From assembly GCA_024698325.1 (NCBI GenBank), contig JAILRG010000093.1, positions 1 to 33,926 of the forward strand: 33,926 nt of DNA, read 5' to 3'. Each line of letters opens with the position of its first letter. Within the stretch, counting starts at the first letter, position 1. The notes below the pieces were generated by a model. That model made no database searches and was not told the DNA's origin. It saw only the letters and a list, made by a program, of their open reading frames with translations. Made by a program: the position numbers and the translations under genes. This document shows, piece after piece, positions 23,660 to 33,926 of the stretch. This DNA comes from Treponema sp. Its GTDB lineage: Bacteria; Spirochaetota; Spirochaetia; Treponematales; Treponemataceae.

Positions 23660-23725
23660 CGCCCGCAGCTCGCTTTATGAATTCGTAATTATGCCTTAAC
23701 TCTGTGCAATCGGACTGTTTTGCGC

Positions 23726-23740
23726 TATGATACGCGCAAT
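23726..23740 (+). promoter_or_regulatory. Candidate fumarase promoter -10 box, almost no leader
   Basis: TATGAT (23726-23731) places the start of transcription near 23738, 3 nt before ATG 23741. No good -35 box is seen 16-18 bp upstream, so this is a weaker case than the others. No Shine-Dalgarno is present. Confidence 0.4.
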
Positions 23741-25378
23741 ATGAATGTCGAAGATTTTGATTTTATTCCGTTTGCAGATGGTGTTGACCTTGGTGCGGTG
23801 ACAGAAGCCGCATTCAACCGCCTTTCTTTTACGTTTACCGAAAAACATATCCGGCACATCATTGCGGCTGCCCTTGCGCCGGACGCAAGTGACAATGACC
23901 GCTCCGTGTGCGCCGCCCTGCTGAAAAATGCGCAGATTGCCGCAGAAGGGCGCTTTCCGCTCTGTCAGGACACCGGCATTGCGACTGTGTTTGGCTGGCA
24001 GACTGGCTCTCCGCTTGACCTTAGCAGCCGGGTATACGCATCTGGCGACAGTAGCGGAAAGGCAGGGCGAGAGGGCGACGCGTATGAGGCAATCACACAG
24101 GCTGTTTCCCGCGTGTATGATACGCGCAGGCTTCGTTTTTCTACAGCCTGCCCCTCATCTTTTTACGACGAATATGATCCCAAAAATAACCTTCCTGCGC
24201 AAATTACGCTTTTTAGCGGCCGATGCGCACTCGCGCCGGTGCCTCCGTTTGCACTGCAGGCGGGCGGTTCCGGCGCTCTCAGCATGATTTTTACTGCAAA
24301 GGGAGGCGGCTCTTCAAATAAGACCTCGTTTGTAAGTGGCACCAAAGCATACCTTTCGCCAGAGCGCTTTCGTGCTTTTATGCGCGAACAGATTGAGCAT
24401 TTCGGAACGTCTGCCTGTCCGCCCTATACGATTGCTGTGGTAGCAGGCGGCTTAAGCCCGGAACAGAATCTTTTGACGCTTAAGCTTGCAACCTGCGGCG
24501 CTTATGACGACATGACGTATGAGCCGAATCCCGACGGCTTCCGCGACCGGGAGCTGGAAGAAGAAGTGATGAAAATTGCTTGCGAAACCGGCTACGGCGC
24601 TCAGTTTGGCGGCACACGTTTTGCGCTGGAGGCAATTGTGATCCGCCTGCCGCGTCACGGAGCAAGCTGCCCGCTTTCTGCCGGAGTTTCCTGCAGCGCA
24701 CACCGCAATGTAAAGGCGGTTGTTACCGAAAAAGGCTTTTATCTTGAAAAGACCTGTGCAGAGCCTGAGCGCGTGCCGGGCTTTAGCGAGGCTGTTCGCG
24801 GCGGGGAAGCGCACGGCGGGGCCGGCGAGGCTTCTGTCCGTACGGTGCGCACCGACGGAGGCTTATCAGGCGTGCTTGACTCTTTGCGCGGCGCGGTGCC
24901 CGGAGAGCGCGTGCTTGTAAGCGGGCCGATTCTTGTTGCCCGCGATGCGGCGCATGCCCGCTGGAAGGCACTTATTGACGCCGGTAAGCCGCTTCCCGAC
25001 TACTGCAGCCGCTACCCTATCTGCTATGCAGGCCCCGCCCGCACGCCCGACGGAGCTGTCATCGGAAGCTTTGGGCCTACGACAGCCGGGCGCATGGACG
25101 TGTATGCTGAAATGCTGATGAGCCGGGGTGCGGCTCTTGTCACGCTTGCCAAGGGAAACCGCAGCAAGGAGTGGACTAAAGCCTGCGCAAAATACGGCGC
25201 ATTCTACTTAGGAACGCCCGGCGGCATTGCTGCTCTGATTGCAAGCTCTTACATCACCGCGCAGGAAGTGCTGGATTACGAAGACCTCGGCATGGAAGCA
25301 GTGCGCCTGGTCACAGTGCAGAATCTTCCCGCCTATGTGATTACGAATGACAAAGGCGAAGACTTTTATGCGCGCTAA
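23741..25378 (+). CDS. Class I fumarate hydratase, fused alpha and beta parts
   Basis: A 545-residue iron-sulfur hydro-lyase interconverting fumarate and malate, of the FumA/FumB type with both halves in one chain. Candidate 4Fe-4S ligands are Cys75 (FPLCQDTGIATVF), Cys226 (TSACPPYTIAVV) and Cys310 (HGASCPLSAG). GGGSSNKT and the C-terminal GSFGPTTAGRMD support the family. A Gly/Arg-rich linker near 345-375 separates the halves. An extra stretch between the first two cysteines makes that spacing longer than in E. coli FumA. Tartrate dehydratase activity cannot be ruled out. An in-frame TTG at 23720 is rejected because it overlaps the likely -10 box; ATG 23741 is used. It is a lone gene converging on the giant lipoprotein gene. 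Confidence 0.85.
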   Translation: MNVEDFDFIPFADGVDLGAVTEAAFNRLSFTFTEKHIRHIIAAALAPDASDNDRSVCAALLKNAQIAAEGRFPLCQDTGIATVFGWQTGSPLDLSSRVYASGDSSGKAGREGDAYEAITQAVSRVYDTRRLRFSTACPSSFYDEYDPKNNLPAQITLFSGRCALAPVPPFALQAGGSGALSMIFTAKGGGSSNKTSFVSGTKAYLSPERFRAFMREQIEHFGTSACPPYTIAVVAGGLSPEQNLLTLKLATCGAYDDMTYEPNPDGFRDRELEEEVMKIACETGYGAQFGGTRFALEAIVIRLPRHGASCPLSAGVSCSAHRNVKAVVTEKGFYLEKTCAEPERVPGFSEAVRGGEAHGGAGEASVRTVRTDGGLSGVLDSLRGAVPGERVLVSGPILVARDAAHARWKALIDAGKPLPDYCSRYPICYAGPARTPDGAVIGSFGPTTAGRMDVYAEMLMSRGAALVTLAKGNRSKEWTKACAKYGAFYLGTPGGIAALIASSYITAQEVLDYEDLGMEAVRLVTVQNLPAYVITNDKGEDFYAR

Positions 25379-25396
25379 AGCGCTGCTTCTGTCGTC

Positions 25397-25441
25397 CAGC
25401 TGTCGCTGTTGGTGCCGGTGCACGCAATCTGTTGACAGCTG
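25397..25441. terminator. Inverted repeat between convergent fumarase and lipoprotein genes
   Basis: CAGCTGTC (25397-25404) and GACAGCTG (25434-25441) are a perfect 8-bp inverted repeat with a 29-nt loop in the 90-bp convergent gap. It may serve as a bidirectional transcript end, but no T run follows on either strand. Confidence 0.35.
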
Positions 25442-25468
25442 CCGGCGGCGTTGTAGAAACATGGCTGC

Positions 25469-28400
25469 TTATTTTGCGCTCATGTTGATTCTGATGGTCT
25501 TTGTATAGCTCGTCTCGCTTCCCAAATCCCAGCTGAAAGAGGCTGCGCTGTCTTCTCCGCTTGCAAGCGAGCCGTTCTCGTTTGTAAATACGTTCATGTG
25601 CGTAAAGCTTGCCGAGTCGTATGCACCGTACCAGATGCGGTCTACGTTGTCTACGCCGTAAGCGTTTTTAAGGCAGACAGTAAAGGTGTAGTCACTTCCG
25701 TTCATCGTAAAGCCGTTATCGGTTTCGACGACAGTTACCCGGTCATTCTGGCCGTTGGTAGACTCCTCAATCGTGCCAACCAATGTATCGATGCTTGCTC
25801 CCAGCTTTACTGCTTTACCACTTGGGTTCGTCAGATTGAACGTAAGCGCAAGGTACGGGGTGTCGCCCTCATACTGGAAGGCCGGTTTCACTTCAAGGGT
25901 GATGCCGGGGTCGGTGGCTTCGCCCACTGTCCGTGTTGAAAAGTCCACGGTGTAGAAGGCTGTAGATTTTCCAGTTTCATCAAGTGTAACCCAGTAGTCA
26001 GTTCCGTCGACGTTTACTGCCAGCTGGAAGCCGCTTTGTGCAAACGAACTTGCATACCAGGCCGGAGAACTGCCAGTGCCGGAGCTTGTTCCGATGATGT
26101 CGATGCCGCCGAAATAGCTCTTGGTCTCGCCAAGGAAGGTTGATTCATCGGCAATGACAGAGCCAAAGCGGTAGGCGACCATGGTGTCCTGTTTCGGGCT
26201 TGGAATAACGTACTCATACTCTGTGCTTGTGGTGAATGTGCTGGTTTCGGTAATCGTTGTAAGCGTTGGAAGCGCAATGTCAGCGGTGTAGGTGACTGGA
26301 GACACCGTGGTGTCCTGCGCCTGTACGCTGTAGCTTACGCGTACCGTGCGGCCGAGCTTTTTCTGGTAGTAGCTAGCCGGAATTGTAAGCACGGCTTCTT
26401 CGGTAAACTTTGCTCCTGTGCCGGTGTCGGTGGAGCCGTCGAGCGACAGAAGAAGCGTATCGCTGTCAGTGTCGTCTATTGAGTCAGAAAGCAGGGTGAG
26501 CGTTGCGTCGGAAATGGTGGCTTTTTCGTACACGGTCGGCGTTACGACTATGTTTCCGGTAAAGCTTAAAGACGCGCCGACAGTGTAGCTGAGCGTTTCT
26601 GAGTCGAATGAGTCTGCAAGCAGCGTGTTTGTAAACTCATCTGTCGTGCCGTTCTGCACGATTTTTAGCGCGGTGAGCGTTGCTGTCGTGTCTGCCTCAA
26701 CGTAGGCTATCAGATAGTAGACATGTTCTGTTCCGCTTGCCGACGTTACGGTAATTGTAAAGAGCAGGCTGCCAGCGTCATCATCTGTGATTGTGTATGT
26801 GCCACTAAAGGCGCCGGTGGAGTTTGAACCGATTGCCGTTTCGTCATCCCAGCTCGTGTCAGTGGCCGTTGTGATTTTGCTTGTCGCAGAGTGCCGTTTC
26901 GTTACGCTGATTGTCGCTTTTTCAGAGACTGCGGTAGCTTTAAGAGTAATAGTTCCTTTGTCGAGCGTGTATGCAGTTCCGGCGCTGTCAGCAATGTAGG
27001 TGTTGCTGTCTGCGGTACTTGTCCAGTCAAAACCGCTTGCATCCTGTAAGAGCGTCGTTTTTGGCGCTGTCAGCTTTAAACTTTTTAAGCGCGCTTCTGA
27101 GTCGTCAGCGCGGACAATGTAGTAGGTGTAGTCTTTTGAAGTGCCGTTGTTGTCTACGTACAGCAGGACTTTTGTCGTTCCGACAGGAAGAATCGTGCTG
27201 GACTCTTCAACTGTTTCCGGCTGCGTGCGCGTGTAGCCGTCTGCACTGTAGGTTGCGTTACCGATAGAGACTTTCCACTTGTTTGAGATTATTTCGTCAG
27301 TTGCGTCTTCGTGAAGCACTGCATAACTTGCGTTGCTTGCGTTTGTTACAGACGTGCTGTTTGCATCAGCGGTCTGCTCAACGCTTTCGATGCGCACTTT
27401 TGCGTTCTGCTGTGCGACTTGAAGCGAGAGTACGACGCTTTCCACTCTGTTTTCGACATAGATGTATGAGGTACGCGTTGTCGTGTCTATGCCGGTTCCG
27501 TTTCCTGTCCAGCCGCTTACCGTATAGCTTGTGTCGGTCAGGTTCGGCTTAACAAAGGTGTATGATATACCGCAAATGGTTACCTTCGTCGTTCCGTTGG
27601 GAAGGTCTGCCGTCTGTGCATCCACTCCGGTGCCTTTGACGACCTCGCCGAGCGTAAAGTGGTAATAGGGTGCGGCTCCGTCGTCGAGGTAGCTGCATTC
27701 GTCAGTGACTGGTTCTACGCTCGTTGCGCTATTGGCGTAGCCCGTAAACGTCTTGTTTTCATCGCTTCCGTCGTATGCGCTGTTTACCGCCATGTAGGTG
27801 ATGGCGGCATCTTTGTCGAGCGGGCGGAAGTAGAAGTCCAGCTTGTCGGCATAGGTTGTAACCTTTGTGCTTGCGGCGGTGGTTGTATAGGCGACCGTGC
27901 TGCTTGTACGCTGGTCCAAAACAGTTTCTGTGGTTCCGTCTTCATATGTTGCGACAACGACAAGTGCCGTAAGATTCTGGTTTTCGTCGCCCGCCTTGGT
28001 GATGTCCACTGCATGGTAGGTTACGTCGGCGCGTTTTGTTTCCTCGTAGCCGCTTGTGGTCGTGGTGCTTGTGTGGTAGTAGCTGTCACTGGTGGTGCGT
28101 ACCCAGAGCACTTTTTCTAGTGTTTTTGCTGTCACGTCTCCTGTCTGAACGGTGTACGTTCCCGGTGTCGAGCCTGTCTGTGTTGCATAGCTGTACTCAC
28201 TTGTCCACGCATCATCGCCGGGCAGCGTGTCTACGCTGTCAGAAACGCCGTAAGCGACCGTTGTGCGCTTGTTGTTCGGTACGGCGGTAAACTCAACCTG
28301 AGTGACGTCTACGCGGCTGTCAGCGCTCAAGGTCATGGCGTATTTTGCCGTACCTGCAGCACTTTCCCCTGTGTATGAGGTATCAGTCGTAAAACCTGAG

Positions 28401-31006
28401 ACGCCGTTTGCAAAAGAGTCGCTGGGCGTAGTCTCGAGGGACGCGAGGCTTGTGTCGCCGTCGTTTGTCTTTATGACGTAAATTGTGTAGGTGCGGCTCA
28501 CGCCAGATTCATCGGTTACCGTAAAGGTGATGCGCGAAGTTCCGCCGACTAAAGGCACGGTGCTGCCGCTTACGTTCGGCACGGTGCCGTACTTTGTGAT
28601 TGACACCGGCGTCGAGACCTCTGCGTCCTCGCTTGCCGGCGTTGCATTAATCGTGATGGAGTCTGCGTCTTCGTCCGCTGTCAGCGTGTATGTCGTGACA
28701 GCCGGGCTGAAGCTTGGCGTCAGAACGGCGCTTGTTGTGTCATCGCCGTTGATGTCTACGGTAAGCTCGGAAAGCTGTGAGTAGGCAGCCTCGGTTGACG
28801 AGCTGGAGCTGGAAGTCGCGGCGATGTCCCTCGTGAGCGTGATTGTGTAGACTGTGTCTGCTTCTCCGTCAGCGCTGACTGTCGCTGTGACCACTGTAAC
28901 GCCGTATGGAATTGTCGCCGTTATAGCCTGATTGTCGCTGTAGGTGTCGTCAACGGTATATTCGATTACTTCGGCGCAGTCTTCTTCTGTTTGCCCCGTT
29001 ACCGTTTTTGTAGTGACGGTTGTCGTGGTTCCGAGCAGGCTGTCGGTTTCGGTCGTCTCTGTTTCTTCAACGATGGCAGAAAAAGCCTTTGTCTGCACGA
29101 TGCTCCAGGTAATGCTTGCGTCTGTGTCCGCGAGGAAGCAGCGGAAGCCCATGTCGTTGTCGGCGCCGGTAATGCCGGTCACGGTGTAGTCATTGCTGTC
29201 AGCACTGAATGAAATCTGGTTTACGTCCGGATTTTGCGCGCTCAGTACGACAAGTCCCCGGTCTGTTATCAGGCTGATATTCGAGTTTTCCTCATCGCTT
29301 GAGACAATGTTTACGTTTGTTACGACCTGCTTTTTCTTTAAGGTGATGGTGTAGGTGGAGGCGGCGCCGGAGTCAGCGTCGGATGCGGAGGTTACCGTAA
29401 CCACGGTGGTACCGTAGGGCAGGTTTCCCGTGCAGATGGAGGCCGTGCCGTCTTCCGAAAGCGCAAGTGTGCCCGAATCAAGTAAATCAACCTGCTCGTC
29501 AAGGTCAGTATAGGTGCCGCCTGTCTGATAGGTGTAGGTGACGGTGCCGCTTGCGCTTGTGTATGTGGTCAGGTGTGCGGTATAGGTTTGCGTCTGCACT
29601 GCCGTCCAGGTGAGCGTTGTGAACTCTGGCTCTTCCTGAACAAAGCGTATGGTGACCGGGTCGTTTCCGCCGTGTAACTCTGTGACGGCATAGCTTGTTT
29701 TTTGTGCATCGTAGTCGATAAGGTTACCGGTTTTTCCGTTTGCATATACTGCCAGTCCGCTTTCGTTTGATGTGCTGTCAGTGCCGGCTGCTGCTGTAAT
29801 GACATAGCGCTTTGTCAGCGTGATTTTGTATTGCGTCGTGTCTGTTACCAGATCGCCGTCTATGTTTTTATTCTGCGCGGTGATTGTTGCATATACTTCG
29901 GTGGTGCCGTAGGGCAGGTTCGAGGTGACGATGCTTGCTGTCTCTGTTGAGGAGTCATCGTAGCGCAGGAATGGGGTGTTTGACGTAGCGCTGTCGTTTG
30001 CGCCGAGTATGTCAAAGGAAACGCTTTCGGAAAGTGTCTCGAGCTCCTGGGAAATGACGCCACCGGTGTCGTTTGTGACCGGTACATAGCGCTTGGTCTG
30101 GCGTGCGCTCCAGGTAAGCGTTGCCTCCTCGTCAAGCAGGAAGCACTTGAACGTCACCGGGTCGTCGCGGCCGGTCAGATCCCCGGTTGTGTCTAATCCG
30201 CTGGAATCTCCGATTTCGTACTCGAACTGCGTGCTGCTGTAGTTGATGGCATTGTAGCCCGGCTGCGTCGCTTTGATGACGACAAGGCCGTGATCGGTAA
30301 CCGTGTTACCCTCTTCGGTTGAAGAATCTGCTATCGTGGAAATGAACACTTTTGTTACGACAACCCGGTAGGTGCTCGTGTACTGTTCGTCGTCAGCGGT
30401 GATGGTGCAGGTAAGAACGGTAACGCCATACGGAATGTCAGCGTAGATGCGGGAACCGTCGGTACAGCCGGATGCGGCTGCTGTCCGAACGCTCACGTTC
30501 TCAGAAAGAGGCAGGGCTGTCTGGCTGATGACGCTTGAATATGTCACCTCGTTTCCGTCTTTGTCGGTCGTTGTGTGCATTTTCACCTCGGGAACATAGT
30601 TCCAGGTCTGCACTGCCGTCCATGTGACCGTGGCATTGGAATCCTGCGCATAGCAGCGGAATTCTACCGGATCGTCTTTTGCCAGCAGCGGAACGTCGGT
30701 GCCGTTGGTGTAGCCAATCTCGTCAAACTCGCTGTCTTCGTAATCTTTTGGAACCATGCCGACATAGTACGCCGTCTGGTCTTTATCATACGTAATCTGG
30801 TTGTACTCAGGTTCACTTGCCTTGATGACGACAAGGCCGCTCGTAATATTCTTACTGCGCAGGCTGGAGGATGAGTCAGCGGATGTAAGGCTGCTGTTGC
30901 CGGTTTTTTCGCTTCCGTCTGCATTGTAGATGTTTTCAAACAAAGCTGAACAGCCGGTAGCCAGTAAAAGAAGGCCTGTCGCTAGAATAGTCTGAATCGC
31001 TTTCAT
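25469..31006 (-). CDS. Giant repeat lipoprotein with cadherin-like beta-sandwich domains
   Basis: A 1845-residue, Ser/Thr-rich protein. Residues 1-19 end in LLLLATGC, a good lipobox, so it should be lipidated at Cys19 and exported. Four homologous units of about 145-165 residues follow (57-219, 239-399, 416-558, 583-726). Each runs GLVV...Y...DDPV.F.C...A..TWTAVQT... and ends YGVTVVT.T..A....YTITLTK. From about 740 come divergent beta-sandwich modules of the cadherin-like type (LSELTVDINGD...FSPAVTTYTLTAD...YTIYVIK). A C-terminal region ends in SFTHMNVFTNENGS...INMSAK. No enzyme motif is seen. AAAGGAGC precedes ATG 31006. It lies 23 bp behind the OmpA-family gene, so the two should be co-transcribed and may form one envelope structure. 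Confidence 0.8.
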   Translation of the reverse strand: MKAIQTILATGLLLLATGCSALFENIYNADGSEKTGNSSLTSADSSSSLRSKNITSGLVVIKASEPEYNQITYDKDQTAYYVGMVPKDYEDSEFDEIGYTNGTDVPLLAKDDPVEFRCYAQDSNATVTWTAVQTWNYVPEVKMHTTTDKDGNEVTYSSVISQTALPLSENVSVRTAAASGCTDGSRIYADIPYGVTVLTCTITADDEQYTSTYRVVVTKVFISTIADSSTEEGNTVTDHGLVVIKATQPGYNAINYSSTQFEYEIGDSSGLDTTGDLTGRDDPVTFKCFLLDEEATLTWSARQTKRYVPVTNDTGGVISQELETLSESVSFDILGANDSATSNTPFLRYDDSSTETASIVTSNLPYGTTEVYATITAQNKNIDGDLVTDTTQYKITLTKRYVITAAAGTDSTSNESGLAVYANGKTGNLIDYDAQKTSYAVTELHGGNDPVTIRFVQEEPEFTTLTWTAVQTQTYTAHLTTYTSASGTVTYTYQTGGTYTDLDEQVDLLDSGTLALSEDGTASICTGNLPYGTTVVTVTSASDADSGAASTYTITLKKKQVVTNVNIVSSDEENSNISLITDRGLVVLSAQNPDVNQISFSADSNDYTVTGITGADNDMGFRCFLADTDASITWSIVQTKAFSAIVEETETTETDSLLGTTTTVTTKTVTGQTEEDCAEVIEYTVDDTYSDNQAITATIPYGVTVVTATVSADGEADTVYTITLTRDIAATSSSSSSTEAAYSQLSELTVDINGDDTTSAVLTPSFSPAVTTYTLTADEDADSITINATPASEDAEVSTPVSITKYGTVPNVSGSTVPLVGGTSRITFTVTDESGVSRTYTIYVIKTNDGDTSLASLETTPSDSFANGVSGFTTDTSYTGESAAGTAKYAMTLSADSRVDVTQVEFTAVPNNKRTTVAYGVSDSVDTLPGDDAWTSEYSYATQTGSTPGTYTVQTGDVTAKTLEKVLWVRTTSDSYYHTSTTTTSGYEETKRADVTYHAVDITKAGDENQNLTALVVVATYEDGTTETVLDQRTSSTVAYTTTAASTKVTTYADKLDFYFRPLDKDAAITYMAVNSAYDGSDENKTFTGYANSATSVEPVTDECSYLDDGAAPYYHFTLGEVVKGTGVDAQTADLPNGTTKVTICGISYTFVKPNLTDTSYTVSGWTGNGTGIDTTTRTSYIYVENRVESVVLSLQVAQQNAKVRIESVEQTADANSTSVTNASNASYAVLHEDATDEIISNKWKVSIGNATYSADGYTRTQPETVEESSTILPVGTTKVLLYVDNNGTSKDYTYYIVRADDSEARLKSLKLTAPKTTLLQDASGFDWTSTADSNTYIADSAGTAYTLDKGTITLKATAVSEKATISVTKRHSATSKITTATDTSWDDETAIGSNSTGAFSGTYTITDDDAGSLLFTITVTSASGTEHVYYLIAYVEADTTATLTALKIVQNGTTDEFTNTLLADSFDSETLSYTVGASLSFTGNIVVTPTVYEKATISDATLTLLSDSIDDTDSDTLLLSLDGSTDTGTGAKFTEEAVLTIPASYYQKKLGRTVRVSYSVQAQDTTVSPVTYTADIALPTLTTITETSTFTTSTEYEYVIPSPKQDTMVAYRFGSVIADESTFLGETKSYFGGIDIIGTSSGTGSSPAWYASSFAQSGFQLAVNVDGTDYWVTLDETGKSTAFYTVDFSTRTVGEATDPGITLEVKPAFQYEGDTPYLALTFNLTNPSGKAVKLGASIDTLVGTIEESTNGQNDRVTVVETDNGFTMNGSDYTFTVCLKNAYGVDNVDRIWYGAYDSASFTHMNVFTNENGSLASGEDSAASFSWDLGSETSYTKTIRINMSAK
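28829..30838 (-). repeat. Four tandem protein-level repeats inside the giant lipoprotein
   Basis: Four units with the shared core motif TWTAVQT (or TWSARQT, TWSIVQT) at residues 129, 299, 467 and 633, and the shared closing motif YG.T.V..T. They are clearly homologous but diverged, so this is an old duplication and not a recent DNA repeat. Confidence 0.75.
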
Positions 31007-31029
31007 ATCTGTTGCTCCTTTCTGTCTCT

Positions 31030-32670
31030 CTATTCGTTCTTAGTTACGATGAACTCAACACGGCGGTTTTTCCACCAGTTCTGCCTGTCTTCCCACGCCG
31101 CAATGGGATTTGCGCCGCCTTTACCAGTAGCGGTCAGCATTTCCTCCGGAAGTCCGCGCTCCATAAGCAGACCCTGGATTGCCTTTGCGCGCTCGTTCGA
31201 AAGCGGAATCAGCTCTTCGCGGTCTTCGCGCTGCGTGTTCGTCACGTTGTTCGCGTATCCTTCAATCAGGACGCTTACGCTTCCGTGAAGCTTTATCTGG
31301 CGGGCAATGCTGTCGAGCGTTTCCCGGTTTTCTTCCTGCTGTTCCCGCGGAATGCTGTTGAATGTAGCCTTGTCTGCGTCAAAGTGAATGGTGTTGACGA
31401 TGATTTTCCACTGTTTTTCGGGAATGATTACCTGCATAAGAATGCCGGTCTGAATTGCCGTCGTTGCCGTAAGGCTGTCCATTCCGGTGCGCTGGCGGTC
31501 TTTTTCTGCCGGCACGACTGTCAGATGCACGGTGTACACGTTACGGGAGAAAGTAAGCTCTCCGTCGTCGGAGCGGCCGTCCCAGATGACGCTTTCGGGA
31601 AGACTGCCTGTTCCGCTCCAGTGCCTGAATCCGTGATTCTGCGGGTCCCTGATTTCGATTTCCCAGTGTTCCGGCTCCAGTTCAAGCCGTTCTGCACCAG
31701 GCGTGATGCGCACGCTGTCTCCAATGCCGTCGTTATCGGGCGTAAAGTCTGTGTCCGGGCTTGCAGTAAGCGTTGCCGCAGGTTTTTCCCAGGTAGCGGC
31801 AAGTTTTGCCCGTTCTTCTTGAGAGCGAAGCGCTTCCTCTTTTGCAAGCCGCTCTTCCTCTTCGGCTCTGCGTCGTTTTTCTTCTTCTGCAAGCTGCTCA
31901 TCACGCTTTTTCTGTTCTTCTGCTGCCAGTAACGCTTCTTTTGCAGCTTCTTCGCGGCGCTTTTTTGCCGCCCGGTGACGCTGCACGTCAGTTATGATGC
32001 CCAGCGGATATGTGCGTACGCCCAGGTAGATTCTGCTGAAGCCTGCAAAGCCGCCGCCGATGCTTGTGTCATAAAACGCGTCGTAGTCAACGCCGGCAAA
32101 AGGAATCATCATGTCTGTTCCGAGGAAAAACGCCAGTTCCAGCGATGCGCCGTAGAAAAGGCAGTTTGCGCCTTTGTCAAACAGAGATACGCTGTTCATG
32201 CGGTCATCTTCTTTTGCACGCTTTGAAGGATAGTAGTCTGTAGTGATAAAGTTCACGCCGATGCCAGCGCCCGGTACGATTTCGAGCCAGGACGGAAGCC
32301 AGTGAATGCTGTTCTGGGAAAGCACCCGGCGCAATCTGAATATGGCGATATTGTTCTTAAAATTCTGCATCAGGGCATAGGAACCTTTTCCCTGCCCCCA
32401 CTGGTCATGAAAATACTCAAGACCGAAAAGCCACCCGCTCCAGTTGTAGCCAGCGCCGATATAGCCGTTTCCGCCAATGCCCGTCATGGCGATTCTCCCC
32501 TGATTAAAGAATGTCATGGGAAAATTGAGTCCGCCTCCCAGTTCAAAATAGACATGATTCGGAACGATAAATTCCACGGTCGGAAGAAATTTGCCATTGT
32601 CAGGCTCGGCGGCAGCCGGAAAAAGAAAACTTCCCGCCAGCACTGCCAGCAACACAGAAAAACGTTTCAT
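31030..32670 (-). CDS. OmpA-family outer-membrane protein with beta-barrel, coiled coil and peptidoglycan-type domain
   Basis: A 546-residue envelope protein. A signal peptide (1 to about 21, ending FPAAA) is followed by a barrel-like region (about 30-224, alternating aromatic strands, YPLG end). A highly charged Lys/Glu/Ala coiled coil covers 231-295. An Ig-like module with the TDFTPDNDGIGDSV signature and WDGRSDDG resembles FlgD-type domains (about 300-388). An OmpA C-terminal domain spans about 422-546 (IHFDADKATF, SNERAKAIQGLLMERG, NRRVEFIV). In that last domain the usual GHTD of the peptidoglycan site reads GYANN, so the binding Asp is missing while Arg494 remains. GGAG precedes ATG 32670. 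It is first in an operon with the giant lipoprotein. Confidence 0.87.
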   Translation of the reverse strand: MKRFSVLLAVLAGSFLFPAAAEPDNGKFLPTVEFIVPNHVYFELGGGLNFPMTFFNQGRIAMTGIGGNGYIGAGYNWSGWLFGLEYFHDQWGQGKGSYALMQNFKNNIAIFRLRRVLSQNSIHWLPSWLEIVPGAGIGVNFITTDYYPSKRAKEDDRMNSVSLFDKGANCLFYGASLELAFFLGTDMMIPFAGVDYDAFYDTSIGGGFAGFSRIYLGVRTYPLGIITDVQRHRAAKKRREEAAKEALLAAEEQKKRDEQLAEEEKRRRAEEEERLAKEEALRSQEERAKLAATWEKPAATLTASPDTDFTPDNDGIGDSVRITPGAERLELEPEHWEIEIRDPQNHGFRHWSGTGSLPESVIWDGRSDDGELTFSRNVYTVHLTVVPAEKDRQRTGMDSLTATTAIQTGILMQVIIPEKQWKIIVNTIHFDADKATFNSIPREQQEENRETLDSIARQIKLHGSVSVLIEGYANNVTNTQREDREELIPLSNERAKAIQGLLMERGLPEEMLTATGKGGANPIAAWEDRQNWWKNRRVEFIVTKNE

Positions 32671-32854
32671 ATAACTCCAGATTATTATGAAGGGAACTTC
32701 ATTACTTGATAGATACTTATTGGGAAGATTATCATAATTAATTACATAAAGTCACATAATGCAGTTTATTGCTTTTTATTTGAAAAATACTGCGTTTTTT
32801 ACGAAAATAACAACATATTATTGCATATGTGGAAGCGGTTAGCAAGTATTGCTG
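32671..32854 (-). other. AT-rich intergenic region before the OmpA-family gene
   Basis: This 184-bp stretch is markedly richer in A and T than its surroundings and should hold the promoter of the outer-membrane operon. Several weak -35/-10 pairs exist, for example TTGTTA with TATTTT at 18 bp, but none stands out. GCAGT/ACTGC arms near 32761-32793 with a following T run on the plus strand are a weak hairpin of unclear use. Confidence 0.4.
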
Positions 32855-33619
32855 TTAATTGATGCAAAATGCTGTATAAAATGTGGTTTTTAGCTGTGCG
32901 GAAAGCTCTCGTATGCTTGTGCCGCGGATTTCTGCCGCCGCCTGATATACGCGCACAATCTCTTCAGGCGCTGTTTTGCTTTCGCCTTTGAGCGTCTGGT
33001 ACGGTGCATCTGTTTCTAAAAGCAGCCGGTCTGCCGGCAGTGCCCGCACGCAGGAAATGGCGCTTTTTTTGCCGTTAATAATCGGCTTCCCAAAGCTAAA
33101 AAAGCCGTTTACGCCATGACGCAGCAAAGAAAGCGCGTCCTGTTCGCTTCCCATAAACGAATGGAAGATGACCGCCGGAAGCCGGGAAAGCAGCTTGCTG
33201 TCGCGAAAAAGCCGGTCAAGCGCTTTGCGGGTGTGGTTTACAAGCGGTACGCCGTATGTTGCGGCCAGCTCCAGCTGCGCGTGCCAGACCTCTTCCTGCG
33301 CCTGTTCCTGAGAGGCAAACTCCGGCGTAAAAAAATCAAAGCCAGCTTCCCCCACCGCCTGAATGCGTCCCGAGCGAAGCAGCTCCTCTAAAAAGGGGAT
33401 GTTTTCTGTAAGCGGCGCCTGGGGATGTATGCCGAAAGCACTTACTATGCGCGGCGCTTTCAGCCCGGACTCGGCCGCATGCGCCAAAGCACGCGCTATA
33501 AGAGATTCCTGCGCGGCAAATTCCGCCGTGTCGTGGGCACAGGTACAGGCCGCATAGTCAGCAAAGTCCGGCACATGGCCGCACTGCACCAGATGCAGGT
33601 GCGCATCACAAAAAGTCAT
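32855..33619 (-). CDS. TatD-family metal-dependent hydrolase
   Basis: A 254-residue cytosolic protein of the amidohydrolase superfamily. Metal ligands are visible in family order: CDAHLHL at the N-terminus, AVGEAGFDF, PLVNHTRKA, VIFHSFMGS and LLLETDAPY. Members are Mg-dependent 3'-5' nucleases or deoxyribonucleases linked to DNA repair and RNA quality control; the exact substrate of this one is not predictable. The in-frame TTG at 33655 is rejected because it is part of the -35 box; ATG 33619 follows a TATATT box by 7 nt and starts right before the conserved MTFCDAHLHL. It reads toward the OmpA operon but is separated from it by the AT-rich region. Confidence 0.87.
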   Translation of the reverse strand: MTFCDAHLHLVQCGHVPDFADYAACTCAHDTAEFAAQESLIARALAHAAESGLKAPRIVSAFGIHPQAPLTENIPFLEELLRSGRIQAVGEAGFDFFTPEFASQEQAQEEVWHAQLELAATYGVPLVNHTRKALDRLFRDSKLLSRLPAVIFHSFMGSEQDALSLLRHGVNGFFSFGKPIINGKKSAISCVRALPADRLLLETDAPYQTLKGESKTAPEEIVRVYQAAAEIRGTSIRELSAQLKTTFYTAFCIN

Positions 33620-33655
33620 GTACAGAAATATACCTTCTGGGGAAATCGAAAGCAA
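33620..33655 (-). promoter_or_regulatory. Promoter of the tatD-family gene, leaderless geometry
   Basis: On the minus strand TTGCTT (33650-33655), a 17-bp spacer and TATATT (33627-33632) are followed by 7 nt and ATG 33619. An AAGG four bases before the ATG-proximal sequence is too far (about 13 nt) to be a good ribosome site. The geometry matches the pfp and FHA promoters. Confidence 0.65.
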
Positions 33656-33672
33656 GATATACCTTGTATTTC

Positions 33673-33708
33673 AAAAAAAAGGCAGCTCCCGCTCCTTGGG
33701 CCGCTGCC
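33673..33708 (-). terminator. Intrinsic terminator for a leftward transcript from beyond the window
   Basis: On the minus strand GGCAGC pairs with GCTGCC, with an inner CCC/GGG pair, and eight T residues follow (A run at 33673-33680). It stops transcription entering from the right, just before the tatD promoter. The gene it serves is outside the window or is a non-coding transcript in 33709-33926. Confidence 0.75.
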
Positions 33709-33785
33709 GAGCCCGAAACCACCGGAAAAGGCTTTTGCCCCTGCCAGTTCAATGCGGCAGTCGTGTTGCCGACTTTAATAATGGG

Positions 33786-33813
33786 ACCTCTAAAAACTTC
33801 AGTTTTTAGAGGT
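33786..33813. repeat. Perfect 13-bp palindromic hairpin, copy 1 of the CTCTAAAAA element
   Basis: ACCTCTAAAAACT (33786-33798) and AGTTTTTAGAGGT (33801-33813) pair perfectly with a 2-nt gap. The same CTCTAAAAA/TTTTTAGAG core recurs at 33873-33907. It is not inside any supported gene. Confidence 0.75.
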
Positions 33814-33830
33814 AACTTTAAAAATGCGAT

Positions 33831-33863
33831 GTTTTAAGTCGTGATATTTTAACGACTTAAAAC
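33831..33863. repeat. Perfect 12-bp inverted repeat, second hairpin
   Basis: GTTTTAAGTCGT (33831-33842) and ACGACTTAAAAC (33852-33863) pair perfectly around a 9-nt loop. Its 3' end overlaps AAAACTCG (33859-33866), which can alternatively pair with CGAGTTTT (33894-33901). Confidence 0.75.
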
Positions 33864-33868
33864 TCGTC

Positions 33869-33912
33869 GGGTTCTCTAAAAAATTGCCGTAGGCGAGTTT
33901 TTAGAGATACCC
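33869..33912. repeat. 14-bp inverted repeat, copy 2 of the CTCTAAAAA element
   Basis: GGGTTCTCTAAAAA (33869-33882) pairs with TTTTTAGAGA plus ACCC (33898-33912) with one bulged T and a 15-nt loop. Together with the two hairpins to the left it fills the last 140 bases. The remainder of 33620-33926 holds only the tatD promoter and the leftward terminator; I see no supported gene there. Confidence 0.7.
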
Positions 33913-33926
33913 ATAATATAAAAGCA

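Follow-up and report, generated by a model that had tools for sequence, protein, structure and literature searches.

An OmpA-architecture barrel protein and a modular repeat lipoprotein form a linked, exchangeable gene pair in Treponema

The DNA stretch analyzed here, hereafter called the window, comprises 33,926 nt of a Treponema sp. genome (assembly GCA_024698325.1, contig JAILRG010000093.1; contig C87 of a 2.84-Mb genome in 148 contigs). Near its end lies a minus-strand two-gene unit that encodes a barrel protein of OmpA architecture and a long repeat lipoprotein (Table 1). The pair is inherited and swapped between rumen Treponema species as one cassette. We give about an even chance to the reading that the lipoprotein is a surface stalk with a tip of carbohydrate-binding fold, docked on a wall-anchored barrel; its place on the surface, the hold on the wall and the ligand are all putative. 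No paper describing the pair was among those listed in our literature searches, and nothing is claimed about print beyond these searches.

A genetic link between the barrel and lipoprotein genes is well supported. Lipoprotein relatives occur in 26 of 196 genomes of the genus, nearly always as a single copy, and a barrel gene adjoins the relative in 25 of these 26 (some genomes have short contigs on which one gene is cut); the exception is G195. In an initial annotation made from this DNA, a lack of co-occurrence elsewhere had been named beforehand as refuting a two-gene system, and the adjacency came out the other way. All 24 loci examined, including the window, carry the barrel gene followed by the lipoprotein gene on the same strand, with a gap of 2–62 bp that rests on mechanically chosen starts. 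The search in other spirochetes, proposed at the same time, bore fruit in part: the pair recurs in Treponema and one neighbouring genus but was not found more widely in the phylum sample, where the full lipoprotein is confined to this genus. The barrel domain is present in 26 of 245 family genomes, of which 25 belong to this genus and one (G506) to another; the latter encodes a 720-aa (amino acid) barrel protein followed, after 9 bp, by a 1736-aa lipoprotein bearing the C-terminal domain S11 (E = 3e-17). Twenty named contigs trace to Treponema (18) and uncultured Spirochaetaceae (2), and include T. bryantii NK4A124 and XBD1002 as well as ruminant-gut metagenomes. In one locus (L069, 4113–5648; G124), a frameshift or in-frame stop, which may be an assembly error, interrupts the barrel gene.

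The two genes also share an evolutionary history. Their trees correlate with a Spearman coefficient of 0.90 over 18 genomes (0/2000 permutations) and of 0.88 over 15 genomes (0/1000 permutations). Over the same 15 genomes, the control genes rpoB and Lon correlate with each other at 0.82, while the four comparisons of the pair with rpoB or Lon range from −0.11 to 0.04. As the pair trees agree with each other and not with the mutually agreeing rpoB and Lon, the pair travels as one cassette. With the barrel alignment as data, the Lon tree is rejected by 540 log units, compared with only 57 for the lipoprotein tree, although the latter too is rejected in the approximately unbiased test (0.001). 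Two strains named T. bryantii (G015 and G104) illustrate the exchange, with 98.4% identity for rpoB, 47.3% for the barrel protein and 29.6% for the lipoprotein, and with their pairs at different genomic sites. In G015, G004, G024 and G062, a 447-aa gene precedes the pair; the G004 copy, the one that was scanned, is acetate kinase. Beyond the pair in G015 and G004 lies an aminotransferase-like gene family (by eye). In G148 and G104, other open reading frames (ORFs) stand between these two flanking genes and the pairs are located elsewhere. This acetate kinase/aminotransferase-like interval is a variable site: some genomes have the pair there, G148 has a 300-aa ORF that looks glycosidase-like by eye (L236, 5723–6625), and G104 has a GGDEF-like protein with a small ORF (L235, 3966–6585). 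A plasmid collection searched with the lipoprotein gave no match.

The AlphaFold model of the barrel protein (18 sequences; mean predicted local distance difference test score (pLDDT) 81, predicted TM-score (pTM) 0.44) comprises eight strands at residues 40–220, a helix at 222–290, an Ig-like module at about 298–416 and an OmpA fold at 420–544. The OmpA-type barrel, the long helix (first described as a coiled coil) and the Ig-like module that had been recognized from the letters alone are thus all present in it. Foldseek matches the model to Tp0624 at 2.5e-7 and to NspA at 9.8e-7 (target TM 0.79), and VIA-align gives Z scores of 17.3 for NspA, about 15 for OmpA, 15.0 for Borrelia 3oon and 14.6 for Tp0624 (5jir). 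The 3oon entry is annotated as 'Outer membrane protein (Tpn50)', and we take it to be BB_0167. Model and VIA-align agree on an N-terminal barrel of eight strands as in OmpA; with eight strands only, it is not the large TonB-dependent barrel of SusC/SusD-type import. PF00691 matches the C-terminal domain at 1.1e-10 (42.2 bits against a cut-off of 27.2) and is found in 20 of 21 relatives. The spacer helix varies in length, being long in the window protein and short in several relatives, and the Ig-like module gives weak FlgD_ig matches in 6/21 and CHU_C matches in 9/21 relatives. Barrel fold and C-terminal domain are shared with OmpA of Gram-negative bacteria, whereas the window protein adds the helical spacer, the Ig-like module, a changed peptidoglycan motif and a fixed downstream lipoprotein partner. 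By fold, the solved OmpA domains of spirochetes that come nearest to that of the window protein are those of Tp0624 (5jir) and of Borrelia BB_0167/BpiP (3oon; Tpn50 family), in which the canonical Asp is replaced as well. However, the D1/D2 part ahead of the OmpA domain in Tp0624 is not found here, its place being taken by barrel, helix and Ig-like module, and the match covers only 5jir residues 350–476. T. pallidum TP0624 and TP0292 are described as having OmpA-like domains and no barrel (PMC8407342).

The lipoprotein starts with the lipobox LATGC (Cys19), followed by a conserved lipid-proximal CSxLFEN in which C19, S20, L22 and F23 are invariant across 20 relatives. Counted over the lipoproteins within the retrieved loci, the strict form CSx[LI][FY]E occurs in 11/16 pair lipoproteins, in 2/11 lipoproteins near other Ig-OmpA genes and in 0/34 other lipoproteins. 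From there on, the protein is a string of about ten modules, predicted as beta-sandwiches. The four repeats initially described by a TWTAVQT core are true repeats (R1–R4 mutually similar at hhalign E values of 8e-18 to 9e-37), but the exact string is limited to R1 and R3, with TWSARQT in R2 and TWSIVQT in R4. S7 (residues 1005–1156) is a weaker fifth relative of R1–R3 (hhalign about 2e-6 to 8e-6). Of the cadherin-like modules proposed to follow, a single stretch (759–845) passes the PF12733 cut-off, with matches in 15 of 20 family members at E 0.1; the others are all-beta with no Pfam family, and none of the modules scanned singly rose above cut-off. Pfam scans of the whole protein and of its modules also yielded no enzyme family and no glycosidase, in line with the original view that an enzyme signature is absent. 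The model covers residues 736–1845 (mean pLDDT 79, pTM 0.42) as a chain of beta-sandwich modules, nearly all beta. A PDB sequence search with the lipoprotein returned chance-level matches only, and Foldseek with the modelled part returned bead-string proteins only; as the TM-scores among the matches listed are 0.05–0.21, no module-level identity is claimed. Leptospira LigA/LigB, which are surface adhesins, are likewise spirochete lipoproteins of many modules: they carry 12–13 Ig-like modules, and the C-terminal part of LigB is distinct from these (PMC7821625). Their modules are Big_2, whereas no Big_2 was detected in the lipoprotein (only PF12733 in Pfam to E 1) or in 20 family members (E 0.1); the C-terminal part differs, and no OmpA partner of Lig is described in the portion of that source used here (PMC7821625).

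At the distal end, the 255 residues of S11 are modelled as a beta-supersandwich that aligns with the N-terminal domain of cellobiose phosphorylase of glycoside hydrolase family 94 (GH94) at a VIA-align Z of 12.8 (root-mean-square deviation (rmsd) 3.3 over 200 residues, 10% identity). GH116 and cyclic-glucan synthase are the next fold matches, and chain-wide alignments to beta-galactosidase drop to about 9–10 at 13 Angstrom rmsd. Pfam gave no family match for S11. The supersandwich fold is common in carbohydrate enzymes, on the basis of which S11 may bind a glycan. The catalytic (alpha/alpha)6 domain of GH94 and GH116 is lacking in the nearly all-beta model, and S11 is the terminal module of a lipoprotein. 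A different view of the same chain is that of a structural coat, i.e., an S-layer- or glycocalyx-like scaffold fixed to the wall by the barrel and devoid of an adhesive tip, in which the divergence of the distal half would reflect escape from phages, protists or antibodies. In favour of such a coat, the many bead-string matches of the modules include SbsC, Sap and HPI of S-layers, a genome nearly always has a single copy, and the distal half is divergent. We nevertheless consider it unlikely, as S11 has its own conserved fold with a mean identity among relatives above that of S8–S10, and also ends shorter, barrel-less lipoproteins, which is more what one would expect of a functional end domain than of a lattice building block. 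Lipoproteins of about 985–1000 aa that end in S10–S11 and lack a barrel gene are found in L091 (4976–7942), L211 (7056–10013) and L212 (6358–9366), where they adjoin small lipoproteins starting with Cys-Gly-Gly-Gly-Gly.

Sequence change is unevenly spread along the pair. In one clade, the proximal end evolves slowly and the distal half fast: between G024 and G004 (rpoB 99.4%), identity amounts to 98% for the barrel, 98% for R1, 94% for C5, 41–59% for S7–S10 and 77% for S11. A similar trend holds for G062–G004, with little or none for G189–G001 and G003–G151. The DNA identity falls in blocks, which suggests recombination. Length changes in modules too, R2 and R3 being absent from L078, L080 and L081 while R1, R4 and C5–S11 are kept. 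Together with the conserved lipid-proximal segment, the slow proximal and fast distal change may reflect a proximal end that docks near the barrel and a distal end that is exposed. Alternatively, the lipoprotein might be held in the outer membrane by its lipid and never leave the periplasm, where it would space outer membrane, flagella and wall together with the OmpA protein. Many T. pallidum lipoproteins are indeed periplasmic (PMC7521688), as is the OmpA domain by family. Yet ten modules plus a tip are long for a periplasmic spacer, the length is not conserved among relatives (1075–1860 aa), and distal divergence at 99% rpoB identity combined with cassette exchange resembles surface selection, which makes such a strut quite unlikely.

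Returning to the stalk with a carbohydrate-binding-fold tip, the mechanism would run as follows. Both proteins would be exported, and the barrel protein would insert its eight-stranded barrel into the outer membrane. Its charged helix and Ig-like module may span the periplasm, while the OmpA domain would grip the ornithine-type wall in a modified binding mode. The lipoprotein, lipidated at Cys19 and moved to the surface, would dock on the barrel via its lipid-proximal segment and R1. R1–R4, C5 and S6–S10 would form the stalk (modelled in part), its length varying by loss of R2/R3, and the modelled distal supersandwich might bind a glycan, plausibly a rumen plant or microbial polysaccharide, so that a pull on the tip would be transmitted to the cell wall. 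The initial annotation had proposed that the two proteins could form a periplasm-to-surface strut or adhesin. This is partly supported: its reading of the architecture was right, the genes are adjacent in 25/26 genomes, and they share a tree distinct from those of rpoB and Lon, with surface exposure and a physical complex putative. To that proposal, the present analysis adds the S11 supersandwich, the changed peptidoglycan motif and the joint exchange of the two genes. OmpA-RcsF of E. coli, where a lipoprotein and an outer-membrane barrel associate (PMC4942254, PMC7553776), is a works-like parallel only. RcsF reaches across the membrane by way of the barrel and acts in stress signalling, whereas the Treponema lipoprotein is large and modular and its pair is exchanged as a cassette. 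Little is known of the way in which spirochetes tie their fragile outer membrane to a thin wall, or of how their surface proteins withstand the pull of motility. T. pallidum reportedly has no OmpA protein that bears a barrel (PMC8407342). Such a protein, genetically linked to a candidate surface protein, is available in rumen Treponema, cultivated T. bryantii strains included. Treponema is among the fibre-attached rumen genera (PMC7808268), and a tip that binds plant or microbial glycans would help to explain the attachment of these abundant fibre-associated spirochetes.

A number of observations weigh against this reading, the first set of which concerns the wall anchor. The canonical TD(x)7NxxLSxxRA is not kept in the barrel protein, where T is changed to A and D to N (GYTDN in the reference chain, GYANN here), with the Arg of LSxxRA retained (ELIPLSxxRA). 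Because the canonical motif is absent, we file the protein under OmpA architecture rather than as a canonical OmpA that binds diaminopimelic acid (DAP). Of the genome's eight OmpA-domain proteins, only the MotB-like one has TD; TA or TAD stands in three others, and AN in four including the barrel protein. Given this spread, we did not adopt the view that the Asp was lost simply because the wall contains ornithine. Published results point in opposite directions, in that Tp0624, with Ala for Asp, was reported not to bind DAP (PMC5104382), and Borrelia BpiP, with Glu315 for Asp, binds the ornithine-type wall and not the E. coli wall (PMC8092773); wall binding by the barrel protein is therefore plausible and unproven. 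Further points are that the low pTM of both models leaves the domain arrangement unpredicted, and that, of four close genome pairs, only two (both with G004) show a clear proximal-to-distal gradient, the remaining two showing a weak one or none. The genomic neighbourhood lends no support to a glycan role either: the ten neighbouring genes of relatives that were scanned are metabolic, signalling or housekeeping genes with no shared theme, the sole carbohydrate enzyme being an L-fucose isomerase relative. Lastly, G100 has a barrel relative with no lipoprotein beside it, G058, G116 and G195 have tip-bearing lipoproteins and no barrel, barrel relatives in G141 and G110 stand beside other lipoproteins, which argues against strict linkage, and a shared history of linked genes needs no interaction. 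Such cases would suit two independent surface proteins brought together merely through exchange on one piece of DNA. This is very unlikely, however, as order and short gap are the same in 24 loci with different neighbours, and a hitch-hiking partner would be expected to be lost more often than in 1/26.

The initial gene calls, two ORFs on the same strand 23 bp apart, were confirmed. AAGGAG lies 8 nt ahead of the lipoprotein ATG (by eye), and a scan of the 23-bp gap for promoter-like and terminator-like sites found none; both genes are likely on a single transcript. Upstream of the barrel gene, a TatD family gene (32855–33655) is separated by 184 bp, and downstream of the lipoprotein gene lies a convergent class I fumarase gene (23720–25378). 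The sigma-70-like sites of Table 1 are consensus matches near chance level (7 found against 5.3 expected over the region). An Rfam scan over 25000–33926 gave no match. The contig end (33660–33926) contains several hairpin-capable TCTAAAAACT-like DNA copies in both orientations.

Table 1. Features of the two-gene unit, with positions in the window.
Feature	Position	Strand	Basis
Two sigma-70-like sites, 184-bp gap upstream of barrel gene	32845-32817, 32755-32728	(-)	Consensus matches
OmpA-architecture (barrel) protein gene, 546 aa	31030-32670	(-)	ORF list, Pfam, AlphaFold model
Predicted signal peptide, residues 1-21 (ends AAA/EPDNG cut)	32608-32670	(-)	By eye
Predicted 8-stranded beta-barrel, residues 22-221	32008-32607	(-)	AlphaFold model; VIA-align
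Charged helical spacer, residues 222-297 (helix 222-290)	31780-32007	(-)	AlphaFold model, alignment of relatives
Ig-like module, residues 298-416	31423-31779	(-)	Model strands; weak Pfam matches in relatives
OmpA C-terminal domain, residues 417-546, motif GYANN...ELIPLSNERA	31033-31422	(-)	PF00691, fold matches
Intergenic gap, 23 bp, ribosome-binding-like AAGGAG at 31015-31020	31007-31029	(-)	Sequence
Repeat lipoprotein gene, 1845 aa	25469-31006	(-)	ORF list and translation
Cys19 and conserved lipid-proximal segment CSALFENIYNADGSEK	30905-30952	(-)	Alignment of relatives
Repeat R1, residues 50-223	30338-30859	(-)	hhalign, hmmsearch
Repeat R2, residues 236-403; missing from three relatives	29798-30301	(-)	hhalign, hmmsearch
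Repeat R3, residues 412-565; missing from several relatives	29312-29773	(-)	hhalign, hmmsearch
Repeat R4, residues 576-730	28817-29281	(-)	hhalign, hmmsearch
Cadherin-like module C5, residues 740-846	28469-28789	(-)	PF12733 1.4e-10
All-beta modules S6-S10, residues 847-1590	26237-28468	(-)	Model, hhalign
C-terminal beta-supersandwich domain S11, residues 1591-1845 (255 residues)	25472-26236	(-)	VIA-align

The Ig-OmpA C-terminus (about 45–55% identical) recurs on other N-terminal parts, and large lipoproteins are close by in several of these wider-family loci. We tentatively envisage, as a possible though doubtful generalization, an exchangeable class of Treponema surface apparatus in which a wall-anchored OmpA-type barrel would be the dedicated docking base for a large stalk lipoprotein with a glycan-binding supersandwich tip, the Ig-OmpA anchor would also be joined to other barrels, TPR (tetratricopeptide repeat)-helix rods and other lipoproteins, and species would exchange whole cassettes in the way that pili are swapped in other bacteria. 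A different, unrelated-looking barrel-like type (by eye) sits on the anchor in L095 (5646–7337), L096 (5930–7621), L098 (5259–7028) and L215 (6348–7715), with other large lipoproteins just downstream. TPR-like repeats (by eye) and/or a Lys/Glu/Ala-rich helix of several hundred residues precede it in L097 (4509–6677), L099 (4593–7679), L100 (3718–6198) and L105 (3–2606); these proteins are possibly long periplasmic rods. The L105 protein apparently carries two Ig modules.

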